The position numbers and the translations under genes are program-made. The notes under the pieces were generated by a model. That model did no database searches. It was not told the DNA's origin and was given only the letters and a program-made list of their open reading frames with translations. This document shows, piece after piece, positions 49,484-57,226 of a stretch of DNA of 60,950 nt. The stretch's first letter is position 1; each line of letters begins with the position of its first letter. Source of the stretch: Clostridia bacterium (GTDB lineage Bacteria > Bacillota > Clostridia > UMGS1883); contig JAFTOF010000011.1 of NCBI GenBank assembly GCA_017451505.1, forward strand, positions 1-60,950, written 5' to 3'.

Positions 49484-49500
49484 AAATAACACACACTAAA

Positions 49501-49534
49501 AAAATCGGATGTGAAAATTTCACATCCGATTTTT
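49501..49534 (+). terminator. Terminator of the plus-strand run
   Basis: ATCGGATGTGAAA / TTTCACATCCGAT hairpin between an A-run and a T-run; usable on both strands. Confidence 0.85.
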
Positions 49535-49563
49535 GATTTTATTTTTCAGCACTTCCCGAAATC

Positions 49564-49791
49564 GCTCAAAAATGGTGCAGAATTCACGAACTGAACCCTT
49601 TAGGGCTTGCCCGAAGGCGTACGTGGGTACGTCGAGGGTGAAGTTCGTGGATAGCAAAACGTTTATATCGCAAAAAGAATCCGCTTTCGCGGATTCTTTC
49701 ATTAAACAATTAAAGAGATAATGTCAGCTTTCTTAATAAAAGCCGATTCCCTTATTCTTTTTGCGTTTTGCGGTCGGTGCCATTTTTCAGC
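49564..49791. repeat. Structured element B, copy 1
   Basis: 228 bp ending in inverted repeats (GCTCAAAAATGGTGC and GTGCCATTTTTCAGC) and extended by GAAATC/GATTTC at both sides. Inside are CACGAACT/AGTTCGTG, GGGCTTGCCC, GCGTACG-type and CGCAAAAAGAAT/ATTCTTTTTGCG stems. It lies between convergent genes, directly at the end of the sugar operon. Copy 2 is at 56268-56489. Non-Watson-Crick steps in the outer stem are G-U only when read on the plus strand. Confidence 0.75.
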
Positions 49792-49795
49792 GATT

Positions 49796-51280
49796 TCACT
49801 CAAACATCTCGTTGATTTCCTTTACTGTTCTGCGTACTAACAAATCTCCGCCCTCATGTCCTACATTACCGCTGGTAATATATGCACTGTAGTGGCTTCC
49901 TTTTTCCGCCTTTTCTGTAGGAAGATAGCCTCCCCTTCCGCCTGTAAGCTGGAATATAAATGTCTGCTGTGCTTTGCTTCTTGCCTTTATTCTGTTACCA
50001 TAATCAAGGAACAGCTCAAAGGGATTTGTTGCAAAAGCAACATCGCCCAGCCTTACAATATGTGTTTCAATGGGGAAAATTTCACTCTCCTGCTGTTTGC
50101 GATAACGAAGAATCGTCCCTGCATAAACATACATTGCGGCGTTATCTTTGAAATTAAATGTGTCCTTATCACGGTTCTTGTTCACATAATACTCAATTTC
50201 ACGCACCGCCTGCTCATATTCTGCAATAGTAGCCTTTCTGAGAGGAAGGTCAAAGGTAAGTGCCTTATGTTTAAAGATAGGCTCGATCTTTATTTCTTCA
50301 TCTTCAAGTGCCTCGAACACGTCTATAATTTCGTTTGTTACACGCTTTGCAATAAGCTTACATCCCTTAATGTCAAACATAGATGGGTCGGCTTTGCGTA
50401 AAACTGTGTTCTCACGTGTAATATGAGGGTCTTTTACAGGCTGCTCGGGGTCAACCCAGCGAACCATATCTCTGGGGCACTGGTCGCCTGCAGCTCCGAT
50501 AAAGGGAATAAGGAAAATATCCTTGCCATACTTTTCACGCAGATTCTGCTTGGTGTATCCCCAATAGTCTGCAGAGATAAAGTAGTGATGCTCCAGAACC
50601 TGTGCGGGGCAGGCAATGTTTGCCATAATTCCCGTGAGCTTTTTATCTCTGTCAAAGAAGTAGATAAGCTCTATACCGCTGTCGCTTCCGCCCTCTACCT
50701 CGCTGAAGTTGGCATGGTTGGTGTCGCCCCACATTTTTGCACTGCCGTCATTATAGCAAACTCTGCGGCAATGACCTACAACAGCTCTGCCGAAAGCATT
50801 TGCATATTTTGCTTCAGCTCTGTTATCCCACGCAGTTTTTGCGGCTTTCGCAATTTTATCTGCAAGGAATATGAGTGCCTCTTCACCTTCGAAAATATCA
50901 TCTCGTTTTTTCTCGATAGATGTATATTTTTTTCCTTCGGGAAGAAACTCATTTAGAATGCCTTTTGTAACAGACACTGGTGTCCCGTAACCAAAAGCAG
51001 TATGGGTATGTATTGCACCGATAATTATTTTTTCCGGAGAAACCTCTCCGCCCAACTGCACAAATTTTTCTCTTGCCAGTTTAACAAGGTCATTACTTAC
51101 ACTTGTCAGGTCACAGGAAACAGCAATCATCTGCTCTGCTCCCGACTCTATAGCAAGTGCTGTAACGGTAATTTCAGTTTCTACTTTGTCGGAAATTCTT
51201 TCATAAAGCTGACCCACAATATTGACAGGTCTGCCCGGAACAATAGACTCTTCCGCCCAACCAACTAAAAACTTGCTCAT
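49796..51280 (-). CDS. Neutral/alkaline ceramidase-N-domain-like hydrolase
   Basis: 494 residues from the ATG at 51280, seven bases after AGGAGG. The N-terminal region matches the neutral ceramidase fold: GWAEESIVPGRPVNIVG, then HTHTAFGYG with the metal histidines, and GAAGDQCPRD. There is no signal peptide, so unlike true secreted ceramidases it would act in the cytosol. Members of this fold in sugar loci may be lactonases or amidases on unknown sugar derivatives. It is the last gene of the sugar operon, 18 bases after the aldolase gene. Confidence 0.8.
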   Translation of the reverse strand: MSKFLVGWAEESIVPGRPVNIVGQLYERISDKVETEITVTALAIESGAEQMIAVSCDLTSVSNDLVKLAREKFVQLGGEVSPEKIIIGAIHTHTAFGYGTPVSVTKGILNEFLPEGKKYTSIEKKRDDIFEGEEALIFLADKIAKAAKTAWDNRAEAKYANAFGRAVVGHCRRVCYNDGSAKMWGDTNHANFSEVEGGSDSGIELIYFFDRDKKLTGIMANIACPAQVLEHHYFISADYWGYTKQNLREKYGKDIFLIPFIGAAGDQCPRDMVRWVDPEQPVKDPHITRENTVLRKADPSMFDIKGCKLIAKRVTNEIIDVFEALEDEEIKIEPIFKHKALTFDLPLRKATIAEYEQAVREIEYYVNKNRDKDTFNFKDNAAMYVYAGTILRYRKQQESEIFPIETHIVRLGDVAFATNPFELFLDYGNRIKARSKAQQTFIFQLTGGRGGYLPTEKAEKGSHYSAYITSGNVGHEGGDLLVRRTVKEINEMFE

Positions 51281-51298
51281 TTTTATTCCTCCTGACAA

Positions 51299-51973
51299 TT
51301 AAAAATCAAGGATTGTCTTATTTCCATAGACGCTCTCCCAATCCTTGTCAAAGCCTTCTATTGCAGCATCTGTCATGGGATGAGAAATTACAGTCTTTAA
51401 AATATCTGCGGCTACCGTTACGCTGTGACAACCTACACTTGCACATTTATGTACCTGCTGGGCATTCTTGAAGCTTGCTGCAAGCACCTTACAATCCAGA
51501 GCGTAAAGGTCAAGCTGATCTGTGATTTCCCGAACCACTTCGCAGCCGTCTCCTATAATATTATCCAATCTGTTTACATAGGGGGCAACAAAGCTCGCAC
51601 CTGCCTTTGCGGCAATGAGTGCCTGTGCAGGAGTGAAAATAGCCGTCATGGTAACACCGATACCCATTTTTTTAAGCTCCATTGTTGCCTTAAGGCCTTC
51701 TTCTCCGATGGGGATTTTAATATAGAATTCTCCGCCAAGCTTTTCTTTAAGAAGCTTAGCTTCCTCAATAATACCCTCGGCTTTTTTCTGTGTTGTCTGA
51801 ACGTGAAGCATTTTATCAGGACCGATAATGCTTCTGATTTCGGTAACAATTTTCCAGAAATCCCCCTTTGCCTTTGCAATGATTGAAGGGTTTGTGGTAA
51901 CTCCTGCTAAGGGGTAAAATTCATTACAATGACGAATAGCATCAAGATCCGCCGTATCTAAAATATAAATCAT
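51299..51973 (-). CDS. Transaldolase-family aldolase, fructose-6-phosphate aldolase type
   Basis: Class I aldolase barrel. The Schiff-base lysine is K86 in FYIKIPIG. Y132 in APYVNR occupies the position that is tyrosine in FSA and phenylalanine in transaldolases, so aldol cleavage rather than transfer is expected. 224 residues is the FSA/TalC length. It would cleave a ketose (phosphate), giving glyceraldehyde-3-phosphate plus a ketone, which fits the TIM-like gene upstream. Confidence 0.88.
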   Translation of the reverse strand: MIYILDTADLDAIRHCNEFYPLAGVTTNPSIIAKAKGDFWKIVTEIRSIIGPDKMLHVQTTQKKAEGIIEEAKLLKEKLGGEFYIKIPIGEEGLKATMELKKMGIGVTMTAIFTPAQALIAAKAGASFVAPYVNRLDNIIGDGCEVVREITDQLDLYALDCKVLAASFKNAQQVHKCASVGCHSVTVAADILKTVISHPMTDAAIEGFDKDWESVYGNKTILDF

Positions 51974-51985
51974 CTTTCGTTCTCC

Positions 51986-53335
51986 TTATCTGATAACCTG
52001 TATACCGAGCATATCACAAAGATTTGTGATAGCCTCTGTGTTGTCCCCATAGGAAATGATGTAATGCTGACACATTACGTTCTGTGCAAAGCTTTCCACG
52101 TCGTCAAGAAGAATTTCAAGACCGGGAAGCTGAGGTGCGGGCTGTGTCCAGCCGGCTTCCTCCCACTTACGGGGTGTGATGCCCTCTCCTGTAACCATGT
52201 GCATATAATACATACCGTCGTCGTATGTAAGTCGGCACATTGTAACAATGCCGCTCTTAACCTTGCTTACGTTAAGAATACCCTCGGAAAGCTCGCCGAA
52301 TGCCGCAGGCATAACGGTTACATCGCCGTCAACCACTTCTGCGGGAACATAGTCGGGAACGCCTGCCAGAACTCTGTCTGTGAAGAATTCATAGAATTCA
52401 AGATAAAACGCACACTGACCTGTTAAGTATTTCACCATAAGCTGTGTGATGTTACCTAAAGAGTCATTTTCGGGAATTGTGCAAAGACCTGCTTCGTCAG
52501 AAAGAAGCATAAAGATAGGTGCAGGAGGGAAGCCAAGGAGCTTCTTCATTCCGTCAACGTCCTTGAGGGAAATTGCATCGTATCCTCTTTCGTCACAAAT
52601 GGACTTAACCGCAAGGTAATAGCCTGCCGCCTTCTTCATGCTTTCGGGGTTTGCAGGTTTTACAAAGTTCCACTTTGACATGCACTTATCGATAACTTCC
52701 TGAATTTCCGCGTCGGAAAGCTTCTGATAACGCTGCTCAATTTCAAGCATCTCAAAGGTTTCGATTTCGGGACCTATTTCTCTCTTTAAAGAGGGTCCGT
52801 CCACCTGTGTACCATAAAGATTCATATCACGGTAGCCTGCCATACCGCTTCTTGCATGGCGGAGCTTAGCTGCTGCCGATGCTGCTAAGGCGTAGTTATA
52901 AACAGTCTTTGTTTTTGAGGGAAGACCGATAATGTCATAGACATACTTAAAGGTATAGCCAAGGTCATAAAATGTCTTACGGATTGCAGTTGTACCTGCC
53001 TGATCAGCAGTTGTAACAAGGCGGTCGCCTTCAATCCATCCGCAAAGTCCCCAAAGCACCATGGGCTTATGACGGAAATGCTCTGTCACCTTTACCACTG
53101 CATGAGTGGGAATCCAGCCTGCAATGCAGACAACAAGCACATCAAAGCTCTTGTTTTCAAGTGCCGCTACAGCTTTTTTAATGTCCTTTTCCTCGCAATC
53201 GTCTGTTACGGGATAAACTTCAATCAGCTCCATGCCCTCTTTTTTGAGGCTTTCCGCTGCGTTTTTACATTTATCTACTATAATTTCATAAGGTGTATTT
53301 ACTTCACCAAATCCGACAAATGCCGCTTTAACCAT
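51986..53335 (-). CDS. L-fucose/L-arabinose isomerase family protein
   Basis: 449-residue member of the FucI/AraA superfamily (COG2407-like), which isomerises aldoses to ketoses with Mn2+. The N-terminal Rossmann-type domains and the C-terminal barrel are recognisable; PENDSLG (around 290) is the likely first metal region. It is clearly shorter than E. coli FucI (591). Which aldose it uses is not readable. It starts 2 bases before the kinase ends, typical of a coupled pair. Confidence 0.83.
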   Translation of the reverse strand: MVKAAFVGFGEVNTPYEIIVDKCKNAAESLKKEGMELIEVYPVTDDCEEKDIKKAVAALENKSFDVLVVCIAGWIPTHAVVKVTEHFRHKPMVLWGLCGWIEGDRLVTTADQAGTTAIRKTFYDLGYTFKYVYDIIGLPSKTKTVYNYALAASAAAKLRHARSGMAGYRDMNLYGTQVDGPSLKREIGPEIETFEMLEIEQRYQKLSDAEIQEVIDKCMSKWNFVKPANPESMKKAAGYYLAVKSICDERGYDAISLKDVDGMKKLLGFPPAPIFMLLSDEAGLCTIPENDSLGNITQLMVKYLTGQCAFYLEFYEFFTDRVLAGVPDYVPAEVVDGDVTVMPAAFGELSEGILNVSKVKSGIVTMCRLTYDDGMYYMHMVTGEGITPRKWEEAGWTQPAPQLPGLEILLDDVESFAQNVMCQHYIISYGDNTEAITNLCDMLGIQVIR

Positions 53336-53337
53336 AT

Positions 53338-54744
53338 TTATCTCTCCTTTACGTTTAAAATAGTGTCGTATTTAACAAAATTTGCATAAACACCGCTGTA
53401 GTCATTTCCCTGCGGAGTATATACTTTATCTGTTTGAATCATACTGCACGCTTCTTTAACAGAGTCAAAAATCCCTGCCCCTACACCTGCGAGAATTGCA
53501 CCGCCAAGACACGCCGTTTCCTTGTTTTTAAGAGTGATAAGGCGTTTTTTTGTAATGTCGGACTTCATATTGCACCAAAGGGGGCTTTTTGCACCTCCGC
53601 CCATAACGCGGATTTCCTCCACATCGCAATTAAGATAATCAAGATTGCTCTTTAGCATACAGGCAACCGATTCCATAATACTGCGTGCAAAATGAGCGGG
53701 GGTATGCTCGGGAGTAAGCCCTGTAAAGCTTCCCCGTGCATCGGGATTATATTTGGGCATGGTAGAGCCGCAAAGATAAGGAAGGAAGGTTACTCCGTCA
53801 CTTCCTACAGGGATTTTTTCTGCCATGCGGTTTATTTCGTCAAAGGAAACATCCTTTAAAAACGCTTCCTTAAACCATTTCAGTGCCATTCCCGCAGTAG
53901 GGCTCCAGGAAAGAAGTGCATAACTTCCGTCATAGCTGTAATGGCAGGGAACAAAGCTGTCCTCTCTATATTCGGGGACAGTATCCGTAGGCATATAAAT
54001 TGCCATAGTTGTACCCGTCATAACACTGCAAACGCCCTTTTCTATAACACCTGCACCGATTGCTCCTGCCACCTGATCCATTGCAGAGGTGACAACCTTT
54101 ATATCGTCGTACTTTCCTATGTACTCTCCGCTGCCTAAAAGGGCAGGAAGCTGTGATTTCTCTACGCCGATAAAATCAAGCATCTCATCCCAATAGCAGG
54201 ATTTATTGATGTCAAAGTAAATGGTAGAGGACTGAAGCGTCATTTCCGTTACAAATTCACCCGTAAGCTTGTAAAGAAGATAGTCCTCAAGGAGAAAAAT
54301 TTTCTTCGTCCTTGCCCACACGTCTCCCTCATTCTTTTTAACCCACAAAAGCTTGCTTGCAGGCCAGGTTGCCGTAATTTCAGGCTGTCCCGTAATTTCG
54401 TACACCTTTTTTCTGCCGAAATGTGCCTCTATTTCCCTTGCTTCCTCCTCCGCACGGTTGTCAAGCCACACAATGGCATCTCGAACGGGATTTCCGTCCT
54501 CATCTGTAAGGATAAGGGTTTCGCACTGGGTATCTATGGAAAGGGCATCTACCGTGTTTTCCTTACGGATATTTGCAAGAGCGTTTTGGAGAAGCTCCCA
54601 ATATTTTTCTGCCTCAAGCTCTACAATATTTCCGCTTGTTTTTACTGTATAATCCTCCGTATATGAGCAAAGCTCGTTTAATTTATCGTCAAACAAAACT
54701 GCCTTTACGGAGGTTGTTCCAAAATCAATTCCTAAAAGATTCAT
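53338..54744 (-). CDS. FGGY family carbohydrate kinase
   Basis: Two-domain sugar kinase, 468 residues. The phosphate-binding loop GIDFGTTSVKAVLFD opens the protein, AIVWLDNRAEEEA is the substrate line, the catalytic base is the Asp in SAMDQVAGAIGAG (about 236), and GGGAKSPLW is the adenosine motif. It would phosphorylate the ketose made by the adjacent isomerase. Xylulokinase-like by sequence, but specificity in FGGY kinases is diverse. Confidence 0.92.
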   Translation of the reverse strand: MNLLGIDFGTTSVKAVLFDDKLNELCSYTEDYTVKTSGNIVELEAEKYWELLQNALANIRKENTVDALSIDTQCETLILTDEDGNPVRDAIVWLDNRAEEEAREIEAHFGRKKVYEITGQPEITATWPASKLLWVKKNEGDVWARTKKIFLLEDYLLYKLTGEFVTEMTLQSSTIYFDINKSCYWDEMLDFIGVEKSQLPALLGSGEYIGKYDDIKVVTSAMDQVAGAIGAGVIEKGVCSVMTGTTMAIYMPTDTVPEYREDSFVPCHYSYDGSYALLSWSPTAGMALKWFKEAFLKDVSFDEINRMAEKIPVGSDGVTFLPYLCGSTMPKYNPDARGSFTGLTPEHTPAHFARSIMESVACMLKSNLDYLNCDVEEIRVMGGGAKSPLWCNMKSDITKKRLITLKNKETACLGGAILAGVGAGIFDSVKEACSMIQTDKVYTPQGNDYSGVYANFVKYDTILNVKER

Positions 54745-54749
54745 AACAG

Positions 54750-55370
54750 TTATCTCTTAAGCTGAAGGTCGTAATGAACGTCATACGCCTTTTCCTCGTC
54801 TGTATACTTACGCTTTGTATCGATAACCTCGCCGTTGTTCCACTTTCTGTCCTCAACAGCTTCGGTAGTACCCATAACAGTTACGTTAATCTGTCTTCTT
54901 CTTGCACGAACATGGTCCCAGTCAATGAAGTAAACATGTGCAAATTCGCCGCCGTCAAGAACGCCGTCCTTGATTGTCATAGCTTCGCTTCTGCCGAAGA
55001 AAACACTGCGAAGATGTCCGTCTGTGTTCATGCTTGTGTAGTCACCGGGCTCGTTTACATATCTGCCGAACTGTGAGTGGATAGGACCGGGATGACGGTA
55101 CTGATGCTCCTCTGCAAAATCGGGAATCATCTTTCTCATAATATCGAGAAGGTCATGCTGAAGATACTCAAGGTCGAAAGAATCGATGTCATGAGAACAT
55201 TCCTGAACCATAACTGAGCATGTTGTATGATGTGATGCAATTGTAACGGTACCGTTCTTAACACCTGAAGCCGCTACGATTTCCATAACCTCTTTTGAAA
55301 TGTCGTGGAATGTGGGGATCCAACCTCTTGACTGAACTTCTAATTCCTTTTGAAATACTTTAAATTCCAT
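54750..55370 (-). CDS. YjbQ (UPF0047) family protein
   Basis: 206 residues with the family signature HHTTCSVMVQE and the later GPIHSQFG and HVYFIDWDH motifs. Some YjbQ proteins complement thiamin-phosphate synthase mutants, but the physiological role is unclear. Its place inside a sugar operon suggests a metabolite-handling job. The protein is longer than the ~135-residue norm because of an insert after residue 70 and a C-terminal extension. The ATG follows AGGAGG. Confidence 0.85.
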   Translation of the reverse strand: MEFKVFQKELEVQSRGWIPTFHDISKEVMEIVAASGVKNGTVTIASHHTTCSVMVQECSHDIDSFDLEYLQHDLLDIMRKMIPDFAEEHQYRHPGPIHSQFGRYVNEPGDYTSMNTDGHLRSVFFGRSEAMTIKDGVLDGGEFAHVYFIDWDHVRARRRQINVTVMGTTEAVEDRKWNNGEVIDTKRKYTDEEKAYDVHYDLQLKR

Positions 55371-55379
55371 AATAAAATC

Positions 55380-55620
55380 CTCCTGAAAATTTTTATATTT
55401 CTCCCATTTAGGGAATTACACTTGTGGGGATTGTTAAGGGACCACCCTTAACAATTAAATTCGTTAAAATCGGGGGCGTGTACCTCGATTTTAACTCCTT
55501 GCGTGGGCTGGTGCGGTGAGCACCGCGCGAGCGTAAGCCCACTTTTCGAGAGTAAATGTTTTGCAGAGCAAAACTTTGCTTTCGAGAGGATGACCTTGTC
55601 ATCCGTTTAATCTTTCGCCT
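55380..55620. repeat. Array of four or five perfect hairpins in the operon
   Basis: TTGTTAAGGG-ACCA-CCCTTAACAA (55431-55454); GTTAAAATCG/CGATTTTAAC (55463-55495); GTGGGCT/AGCCCAC (55503-55542) enclosing GCGGTG/CACCGC; TCGAGAGTAAA...TTTGCTTTCGA (55546-55585) enclosing GTTTTGC-AGA-GCAAAAC; GGATGAC-CTT-GTCATCC at the SIS stop. It occupies the 228-bp gap between the SIS and YjbQ genes. No coding potential is seen. Confidence 0.8.
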
Positions 55621-56192
55621 ACTGCACCGCCGGGATGAACAAGGGCAAACTGTTCATTCTTAAAATCGGTTTCTTCAATAAGCATGGTTTGCAGCACATG
55701 GAAAATTACTGCAAGTGATGTTGACGATGTTGTTCCCTGGCAGTTGTACTTGTCCGTTTCACGGTTTACATACTGCTTTAAAACTACATCTGCCGCCTCG
55801 GCTAAGGGTGATTCAAGATTTTCCGTAACAGTGATGATTTTTACACCTTTTCTTTTGCAAATGTCAACAAGCACCATAAGTTCCTTGGTCTTTCCGCCGC
55901 GTGATGCAAATACCATTACATCGCCTTCCTGCAAAAATCCTGTTGCCCCGTGTGGACCCTCCGCAGGGGAAATAAATCTTGCAGGCTGTTCTATGCAGCA
56001 CATTAAATGTGCAAAATGCTGGCAGATAATGCCGCTGTGTCCGCACCCGCTTGTACCTATTCTCGGTGCGTTTTTAAGAAGCTCCACGGCCTTTCCGTAG
56101 GTTTCCTCGTCAAAATATTTTGCCATTTCACTAATACACTGGCTTTCCGTTATGTAGGCCTGTTTTGCCATTTCAAGTGCTTCTTTTTTCAT
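55599..56192 (-). CDS. SIS-domain sugar isomerase (KdsD/GutQ-like)
   Basis: 197 residues, one SIS fold binding a phosphosugar. GTSGCGHSGIICQHFAHLM and ASRGGKTKELM are the substrate loops, and HPGGAVGERL near the C-terminus is the arabinose-5-phosphate-isomerase tail. CBS domains are absent, so it is the short type. The stop lies in a perfect hairpin. It probably interconverts an aldose/ketose phosphate of the pathway. Confidence 0.87.
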   Translation of the reverse strand: MKKEALEMAKQAYITESQCISEMAKYFDEETYGKAVELLKNAPRIGTSGCGHSGIICQHFAHLMCCIEQPARFISPAEGPHGATGFLQEGDVMVFASRGGKTKELMVLVDICKRKGVKIITVTENLESPLAEAADVVLKQYVNRETDKYNCQGTTSSTSLAVIFHVLQTMLIEETDFKNEQFALVHPGGAVGERLNG

Positions 56193-56267
56193 AGTATGTA
56201 TTTCCTTTACATTGGTTTTTTAAGTGCTGCTTTTCAGACCTTGAAAAGGGCTCTGATGGGAAAGGGT

Positions 56268-56489
56268 GCTCAAAAATGGTGCGGAATGCACAAACTGAGC
56301 CACGGCTTGCCGTGGGGTACCCGAAGCTGTACATAGGTACAGCGAGAGGCGAAGTTTGTGTATAGCATAAGGCGTATACAATCAAAATTCGCCACCGCGA
56401 ATTTTTTACCGCCTCACTCTTTCCGAAAAGAACACTATTTTACAATAATTATTATTTCACGCCTTATGCGGTTAGTGCCGTTTTTCAGC
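56268..56489. repeat. Structured element B, copy 2
   Basis: 222 bp with the same end GCTCAAAAATGGTGC and the mirrored GTGCCGTTTTTCAGC. Stems CACAAACT/AGTTTGTG, CGGCTTGCCG, GCTGTAC-ATAG-GTACAGC and GCATAAGGCGT/ACGCCTTATGC replace those of copy 1 with compensating changes. The end overlaps the stop codon of the TIM-like gene. It fills most of the gap to the SIS gene. Confidence 0.75.
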
Positions 56490-57189
56490 AGCCGTGCAAT
56501 TCGTCCCACGCTTTACGGAGATTATAAAGCATTTCCTCAACCATTTCATAAGGTCTGTCAGACTTCATAATACCGCTTGTTGTTCCTGTTGCCTGAGCAC
56601 CAAGCTTAATTGTATTATAAACGTCCTGACCATTGGAAATACCTGCACCCTGAAGTACCATAATCTCGGGATTGATTTCACGTACAGTCTTAATTGTTTC
56701 AATTACATAGTTGCTGTCGCTTGTCTGACCTGTTCCGATAAGGTCTGTAGGCTCTGCCACGATAAGATTGGGACCCATTTTTGCAATCTGCTTAACGTCC
56801 TCAACAGTATTTGCACAAACTATTGTTCCAAGACCAACCCCGTCGGCTCTTTTGATTGTCTTTTCAATTTCTTCCATAGTAATGGGCTTTTCAGCGTGGT
56901 TGAGCATTACACCAACTGCACCTGCAGCCTTAACAGCTTCAGGAAGAACGCTACCTAATCCCCGACCCGGTGTAAGGTAGTCCATATGCTGTGCAAACAC
57001 CAAAATTCTTTCGGTGTTATCCGCAAGAAGCTTAATATCAGTATACTGAGGAGTAACGATTACGTCAACATCGTACTTCTTTGCTGTTTCGTCAATTACT
57101 TTTGCCAGTGCGAGCATTTTCTCGCCGTATAAAAACGCTTTGGGACCAACCTCAAAAAACGGAGGCTTTATATTGAGTCCTTTGTACAT
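56485..57189 (-). CDS. Triose-phosphate isomerase family protein
   Basis: 234 residues from the ATG at 57189, nine bases after AGGAGA; an in-frame GTG three codons earlier lacks space for a site. TIM-barrel features: LNIKPPF (Asn-Lys), the electrophilic His in LNHAEKP and the catalytic Glu in VAEPTDLIGTG. The short length resembles archaeal-type TIMs and EryH-like tetrose-phosphate isomerases. It is the first gene of the operon; the glycolytic TIM is presumably elsewhere. Confidence 0.85.
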   Translation of the reverse strand: MYKGLNIKPPFFEVGPKAFLYGEKMLALAKVIDETAKKYDVDVIVTPQYTDIKLLADNTERILVFAQHMDYLTPGRGLGSVLPEAVKAAGAVGVMLNHAEKPITMEEIEKTIKRADGVGLGTIVCANTVEDVKQIAKMGPNLIVAEPTDLIGTGQTSDSNYVIETIKTVREINPEIMVLQGAGISNGQDVYNTIKLGAQATGTTSGIMKSDRPYEMVEEMLYNLRKAWDELHGC

Positions 57190-57226
57190 TTTTTCCACTC
57201 TCCTAAACTATATTATCTTAATCTAT

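Follow-up and report, generated by a model that had tools for sequence, protein, structure and literature searches.

The 60,950-nucleotide stretch analysed here (the window; contig JAFTOF010000011.1 of a Clostridia bacterium) carries two copies of a small structured element, each in contact with the stop codon of a minus-strand gene. What kind of element is this, and does it do anything at gene ends? We observed a dispersed, duplicating and array-forming repeat family with a strand-specific fold, which lies antisense to the gene whose stop codon it contacts. The best explanation, to which we give a probability of about 45%, is that of a non-autonomous mobile repeat that would be recognised through its folded strand and that resides as a 3′-boundary element.

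Both copies had been pointed out in a sequence-only reading of the window, at 49564-49791 (copy 1) and 56268-56489 (copy 2), and these positions and the ends given for them were borne out. The plus strand folded with -85.4 kcal/mol (z -7.3) in copy 1 and -77.1 kcal/mol (z -5.6) in copy 2, and none of 200 shuffled sequences folded as well in either case; the minus strand of both copies gave a weaker fold. The compensating changes proposed between the copies were correct in helix P1 (CACGAACT/AGTTCGTG becoming CACAAACT/AGTTTGTG), in the P2 region and in the P3 hairpin (GCGTAC/GTACG becoming CTGTAC/GTACAG), and the G-U wobbles do lie on the plus strand. One assignment had to be replaced: the copy-1 counterpart of GCATAAGGCGT/ACGCCTTATGC is not CGCAAAAAGAAT/ATTCTTTTTGCG but GCAAAACG/CGTTTTGC (49654-49661/49764-49771). 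The former is an additional pairing of copy 1, in competition with the hairpin AAAGAATCCGC..GCGGATTCTTT. The contact with a minus-strand stop codon was confirmed for both copies, although it is made by the right-hand (3′) end of the element and not by its start.

The view that selection acts on the structure is strongly supported by covariation, by the G-U bias, by conservation of the core in place and by the presence of helix P4 in all 66 copies examined. Two covariance models were used, one of the left domain (R1) and one of the core alone (R2). In the R1 alignment of 111 copies, which is fitted to the structure and whose pair counts therefore lean towards it, 97.8% of cells paired, double-sided changes were found in 17 of 25 pairs, and double-change cells numbered 386 against 99 in shuffles; when partners were slid, pairing fell to 29-45%. 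A first alignment of 15 copies, built without any structure, already held double changes in 13 of the 25 pairs. An extra pair outside the model (alignment columns 22/117) was A-U in 67 copies, G-C in 38, G-U in three and broken in none. The fold consists of an outer helix around P1 (with tandem GA/GA), an optional P2 of variable length that is missing in some copies, the P3 core, and a domain made up of P4 and H2. Of these, P3 is invariant; it reads CCC-GAA-G(hairpin)C-GA-G-N-GG, with UGA on either side.

Over the R1 helices we counted 153 G-U against 11 A-C cells; for the outer helix the numbers were 46 and 15, the cells not being independent of each other. The excess was distributed over several pairs and was seen again by eye in copies from a Helicobacteraceae metagenome-assembled genome (MAG), while P4 and P2 are almost wholly Watson-Crick and thus carry no strand information. 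Since G-U so far outnumbers A-C, the folded strand is the plus strand of the element. These counts also bear on palindrome correction, in which template switching between the arms would yield compensating changes without selection. Long imperfect palindromes are known substrates of that process; however, it would erase G-U as readily as A-C, and it would not conserve the unpaired core bases CCCGAAG, CGAGNGG and UGA in three phyla. Its probability is close to negligible.

How large is the family? The window's own genome (1.31 Mb, 78% complete) yielded some 15 copies with copy 1 as a DNA query. The genome-wide count with a covariance model, suggested in the sequence-only reading as a check, gave 20 R1 matches at E <1e-13, the two window copies included, with covariation present. 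Among 60 genomes of the window's relatives (the own genome included), which are draft MAGs, 28 had R1 matches, up to 50 per genome, and all six same-genus genomes were among the carriers. The core pattern was found in at least 117 stretches among the matches listed, mostly from gut Clostridia/Oscillospiraceae MAGs, and, again among the matches listed, beyond Clostridia in Bifidobacterium pullorum, B. leontopitheci and the Helicobacteraceae MAG. R2 matched B. leontopitheci 18 times, the Helicobacteraceae MAG 34 times and an Eubacteriales MAG 40 times; of 101 Bifidobacterium genomes, 47 also matched, many of these matches being partial (25 nt) and unverified. A core of the same kind is thus present in three phyla, Bacillota, Actinomycetota and Campylobacterota. 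The spread is patchy, because among 398 genomes drawn evenly from the window's phylum and searched with strict filters, the own genome was the only one to match. Phage and plasmid collections gave no match to the element at blastn sensitivity, and IMG/VR gave four matching contigs, three of them from one locus; nothing in this suggests a phage element.

Scans of the window and 20 loci with Rfam (release 15) gave no match to the element at the gathering score, and relaxed matches to copy 1 fell far below threshold; this is not a known Rfam family. No description of it turned up in open-licence papers when these were searched for the core sequence and similar repeats. The family is real, and as a small structured repeat it is ordinary. 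Its unusual traits are the cross-phylum core, the antisense-strand fold, the strict polarity towards stop codons and preservation in place.

Polarity was analysed with mechanically predicted open reading frames (ORFs) around 94 distinct copies of the window's genus. Of 82 genes on the 3′ side, 73 lay on the opposite strand (p 1.4e-13), and the gene on the 5′ side showed no strand bias (45:42). The 3′ end of the element lies 0 to ~20 nt from the stop codon of the 3′-side gene, or supplies that stop, and the median distance from core to stop is 182 (80% range 166-191). All ten Bifidobacterium/Helicobacteraceae loci showed the same polarity and stop contact. At nusG of three Bifidobacterium species (L380, L381 and L109) the element is found at the same stop codon, with arms that are different yet paired. 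In the own genome the adjoined genes include those for triosephosphate isomerase (tpiA), ATP synthase subunit c (atpE, beside subunit b), SecA (beside release factor 2), RNase Y and PheA; gene names throughout were read from the sequence. The folded strand is antisense to the adjoined gene, since polarity is fixed relative to that gene.

A fixed orientation right after the stop codon in three phyla would also be explained by a sense-strand element of the 3′ untranslated region (UTR) of the adjoined gene, acting in RNA stability, processing or termination, with a polarity that follows from its mRNA function. One Helicobacteraceae copy, a long hairpin between an A-tract and a T-tract, fits such an element. 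On the mRNA, however, the G-U pairs of the other strand become A-C mismatches (the 153 versus 11 above), and in both window copies the fold of the minus strand is the weaker one. We consider a sense 3′ UTR element quite unlikely.

The sequence-only reading had suggested a MITE (miniature inverted-repeat transposable element) or a mobile structured RNA. Dispersal was evident: one relative's genome, G023 (98% complete), holds ~50 copies in all; many of its genes bear near-identical ones, and there are tandem arrays with two or three units, in which the last unit obeys the polarity rule when spurious ORFs inside the element are read past. In the sense of the adjoined gene, an array consists of the stop codon, an arm (a′), an element, further (a′, element) units, and then a′-loop-a, a near-perfect terminator-type palindrome. 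Three solo palindromes correspond to the form without any element, and their end variants are those expected from element loss by recombination between direct repeats. Within the window's genus, the left flank of a copy resembled that copy's 3′ arm more than the arms of other copies (9.53 versus 7.42; 0 of 5000 permutations), a resemblance partly due to remnants of older tandem units. Orthologous sites, whose inspection had also been proposed, supplied an occupied and a near-empty state at tpiA: the element is present in the own genome (G000), G002 and G003, and in G005 a short intergenic region with a degraded arm alone was found. On contig C72 of G005, a gene that bears one element in G006 has two: one like that of G006, and another placed between it and the stop codon.

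Simple target-site duplications (TSDs) of the classical MITE kind were not found, and no fixed TSD was seen in the recent G023 copies; the direct repeats are terminator-arm repeats of variable length. The MITE proposal is supported as to dispersal. The element does have MITE traits, namely terminal inverted repeats (its arms), small size, multiple copies and no coding capacity. A classical DNA-transposon MITE with fixed TSDs is nevertheless very unlikely, given that the arms within one genome fall into several different sequence types, that no fixed TSD was seen in recent G023 copies, and that the element has stop-codon polarity and RNA-like internal covariation.

Once in place, the copies are retained at the same genes from species to species, and purifying selection acts on their structure. 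Pairs of loci with orthologous flanks were compared, element core against adjacent coding DNA, and the core was the more conserved in each: 98% identical versus 82% (L005/L197), 96% versus 91% (L044/L231), 99% versus 88% (L048/L212) and 96% versus 87% (L222/L234). At tpiA (L010 versus L198), a manual count in P1 gave two double compensations and two wobble changes, and every pair stayed intact. Such conservation does not come from homogenisation between copies, because orthologous copies keep locus-specific stem sequences. Replacement or re-insertion also occurs, since other orthologous genes bear elements of different arm types (L208/L217 and L205/L227).

This conservation bears on a purely selfish element at the level of single-stranded (ss) DNA, with no host role, in which the plus-strand fold would be a signal for a recombinase or transposase acting in trans, in the style of attC sites or IS200/IS605 ends. 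Such an element would account for a strand-specific fold without a promoter, for tandem arrays with direct repeats and near-identical G023 copies, and for helix sequences that vary freely while pairing is kept. Decay of relics, however, would not yield orthologous cores that are 96-99% identical over 9-18% coding divergence with locus-specific stems kept, and no Y1 (HUH) transposase was found in G023 (50 copies), G001, G002, G003 or G006. We regard it as unlikely, though a serious alternative.

The elements have multiplied, but copies at the same genes remain intact from species to species, and for this reason they look like mobile DNA that gained a job at gene ends. In the mechanism that we propose, the folded strand, as ssDNA or RNA, would be recognised by an enzyme encoded elsewhere. 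Entry would occur beside terminator palindromes at gene 3′ ends, where a terminator arm may be picked up or duplicated. RNA polymerase running into the gene in reverse, through its 3′ end, would then make the folded plus-strand RNA, which would end in a U-tract at the stop codon and terminate; in the sense direction, the same arms may form part of the mRNA 3′ end. Position, strand, U-tract and conservation suggest that its role may be termination or insulation of antisense transcription.

Several observations weigh against a mobile repeat turned boundary element. About 10% of copies break the polarity rule. In 38 of 84 flanking pairs the genes are on the same strand, and some copies sit within operons, a place in which efficient sense termination would do harm. 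The outer helix reached into coding sequence barely more than in permuted pairs (69 Clostridia copies; 63-113 of 5000), and the complex conserved core exceeds the needs of a plain terminator. No partner enzyme was found when reverse transcriptases, Y1 transposases and IS110 were sought in key genomes. The reverse transcriptase domain RVT_1 was absent from G000, G001, G002, G003, G006, G022 and G023 (14-50 copies each), and the IS110 DEDD transposase from G023, G022, G000, G005, G060 and G063; absence of an enzyme from draft assemblies is not proof. Finally, no sigma-A-like promoter was detected before the plus strand: the score was 5.73 versus 7.07 for shuffled sequence, and one of 93 copies reached 10/12. 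Plus-strand RNA would therefore need read-through or pervasive transcription.

The promoter scores also speak against a dedicated antisense small RNA made from its own promoter, for which the strand-specific, covarying fold and the defined 3′ U-tract would argue; with upstream scores below shuffled, such an RNA is improbable. The earlier proposal of a mobile structured RNA stands as to selection on structure, but neither a promoter-like sequence before the plus strand nor, in the own genome or G023, a reverse transcriptase was found. A retron or group II intron was rejected on the same ground, the required reverse transcriptase not being found in carrier genomes. IS200/IS605 or REP/RAYT membership was rejected with the Y1 transposase not found in G023 and most same-genus genomes, and an IS110 bridge-RNA element with its transposase not found in the six genomes searched. 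One Y1-type transposase domain was observed in the own genome, in a 259-amino-acid ORF (G000:C20:51211-51546). For a HEARO/OMEGA RNA there was no match to the Rfam HEARO model, and no search for TnpB/IscB genes was made. A non-exhaustive search by end pattern gave one candidate pair of end hairpins in G023 (C71); an ORF check showed ordinary genes inside, and an autonomous element between these two hairpins was discarded.

Within the window, copy 1 spans 49558-49797 on the plus strand (sequence, fold and R1 search), since its outer helix is 6 bp longer on each side than first noted: GAAATCGC (49558-49565) pairs with GCGATTTC (49790-49797), and the extension enters the stop codon TCA (49796-49798) of the minus-strand R gene (49796-51298, an ORF). 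The arms of this helix are 49558-49578 and 49777-49797. P1 (49581-49592, the first covarying helix) pairs with 49642-49652. The P2 hairpin (49596-49605) is missing from L044/L231 in the alignments, and an alternative pairing, GGGCTTGCCC, is found in the P2 region at 49603-49612. The P3 core CCCGAAG-hairpin-CGAG(N)GG (49610-49638), found by pattern, models and alignment, is the portion that recurs in Bifidobacterium and in the Helicobacteraceae MAG; the 5′ strand of P4 is the GCAAAACG given above. Hairpin H2 (49674-49699, from the fold) belongs to the variable right domain. In the same domain of another copy, L208 (G001:C132), there is an insertion, TCCCTCAGTCACTTCGTGACAGCTCCCTTTACACAAGGGAGCC, that resembles another dispersed repeat. 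As to arms, in two Bifidobacterium loci (L383 and L386) the 5′ arm was seen by eye to be an inverted copy of the last 6-8 coding nucleotides plus the stop of the adjoined gene, and these arms look as if target-derived. Left of copy 1, between convergent genes, lies a perfect, bidirectional terminator-like palindrome (AAAAATCGGATGTGAAAATTTCACATCCGATTTTT, 49500-49534). After it, ATTTTTCAGC (49541-49550) is a direct repeat of the end of the copy 1 3′ arm (49782-49791).

Copy 2 (56268-56489, plus strand; sequence, fold and R1 search) has the stop codon TCA (56485-56487) inside its last bases. The adjoined minus-strand gene (56485-57198), triosephosphate-isomerase-like, is the one whose G005 orthologue is without the element. 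Alignments place P1 at 56285-56296 (partner 56353-56363), the P2 hairpin at 56300-56315 (also in the fold) and the P3 core at 56320-56349 (also by R1/core matches); P4 (56365-56375, partner 56459-56469) was assigned by the fold and the P4 survey. To the left, GTGCTGCTTTTCAG (56224-56237, plus strand) is the 3′-arm remnant of an older element; comparison of orthologous loci showed it in G002 too, and degraded in G005.

A second structured repeat lies at 55421-55605 on the plus strand, and TCA (55599-55601), the stop codon of the minus-strand gene 55599-56192, falls within its 3′ end. Its fold has a z of -11.1 on the plus strand, and it is unrelated in sequence to the main element as far as seen. 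Fourteen distinct copies were found in the loci surveyed, and all ten close ones had the same polarity; G-U and A-C cells were even (68 versus 62) in a noisy alignment. That a second, different repeat family shares position and polarity strengthens the boundary reading of the main element. A wider reading is tentative and on balance doubtful: the element might represent a class of mobile elements defined by a conserved fold and not by ends or a transposase, present in Bacillota, Actinomycetota and Campylobacterota, targeted to gene 3′ ends in one orientation, folded on the antisense strand and recurrently co-opted as boundary elements, with at least one other repeat family (that at 55421-55605) alike.

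If this were true, a structured element would seek gene ends in one orientation across phyla and then be preserved, and mobile DNA would supply bacterial 3′ boundaries. A P3 core that does not vary suggests a protein or ligand partner in common. Resident copies beside atpE, secA, RNase Y and tpiA make any effect measurable on important genes.

Does the element resemble any known system? Integron attC sites lie just after a stop codon, their folded, recombining strand is antisense to the ORF, their structure is kept while sequence varies, and they occur in arrays. The element is similar in its position after the stop, its antisense folded strand, its structure over sequence and its arrays. It differs in that its fold is much larger, with an invariant core, and in that it is flanked by ordinary chromosomal genes and operons and not by cassettes. 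No attC core boxes (RYYYAAC/GTTRRRY) were noticed at its ends, and no integrase search was made.

ERIC, RUP, BOX, CIR and Correia are MITE-like bacterial repeats, scattered between genes, whose two ends pair and whose RNA forms secondary structure (PMC2229807). Our element is likewise dispersed and structured, with ends that pair; whereas each of these families is found in one group and most are TA-ended, its core spans three phyla and its arms vary freely yet pair. REP/BIME are extragenic palindromes tied to Y1 transposases, for which roles in termination and mRNA stabilisation are proposed (PMC2817692, PMC3733652). The element is unlike REPs, which are 20-40 bp, and neither G023 nor most same-genus genomes gave a Y1 transposase.

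The nearest system in behaviour is that of the YPAL/RU-2 repeats of Yersinia. Published accounts (PMC2229807, PMC2759123) describe a small (~168 bp), non-coding mobile repeat with internal inverted repeats and no TA termini, whose targets span or adjoin dyad symmetry and whose duplications are variable in length (3-26 bp); one case of fusion to the 3′ end of a gene, transcription together with upstream genes, and filled and empty sites are known. The published RU-2 sequence folded into an outer helix with a branched interior; in a comparison by eye, no CCCGAAG..GTAC..CGAGNGG core was seen in it. The element belongs to another phylum, and its strand-specific covariation, tandem arrays and strict stop polarity were not found reported for YPAL/RU-2. 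By the published description (PMC2229807), YPAL/RU-2 is, like the element, found beside dyad symmetry, with duplications of variable length, near gene 3′ ends.

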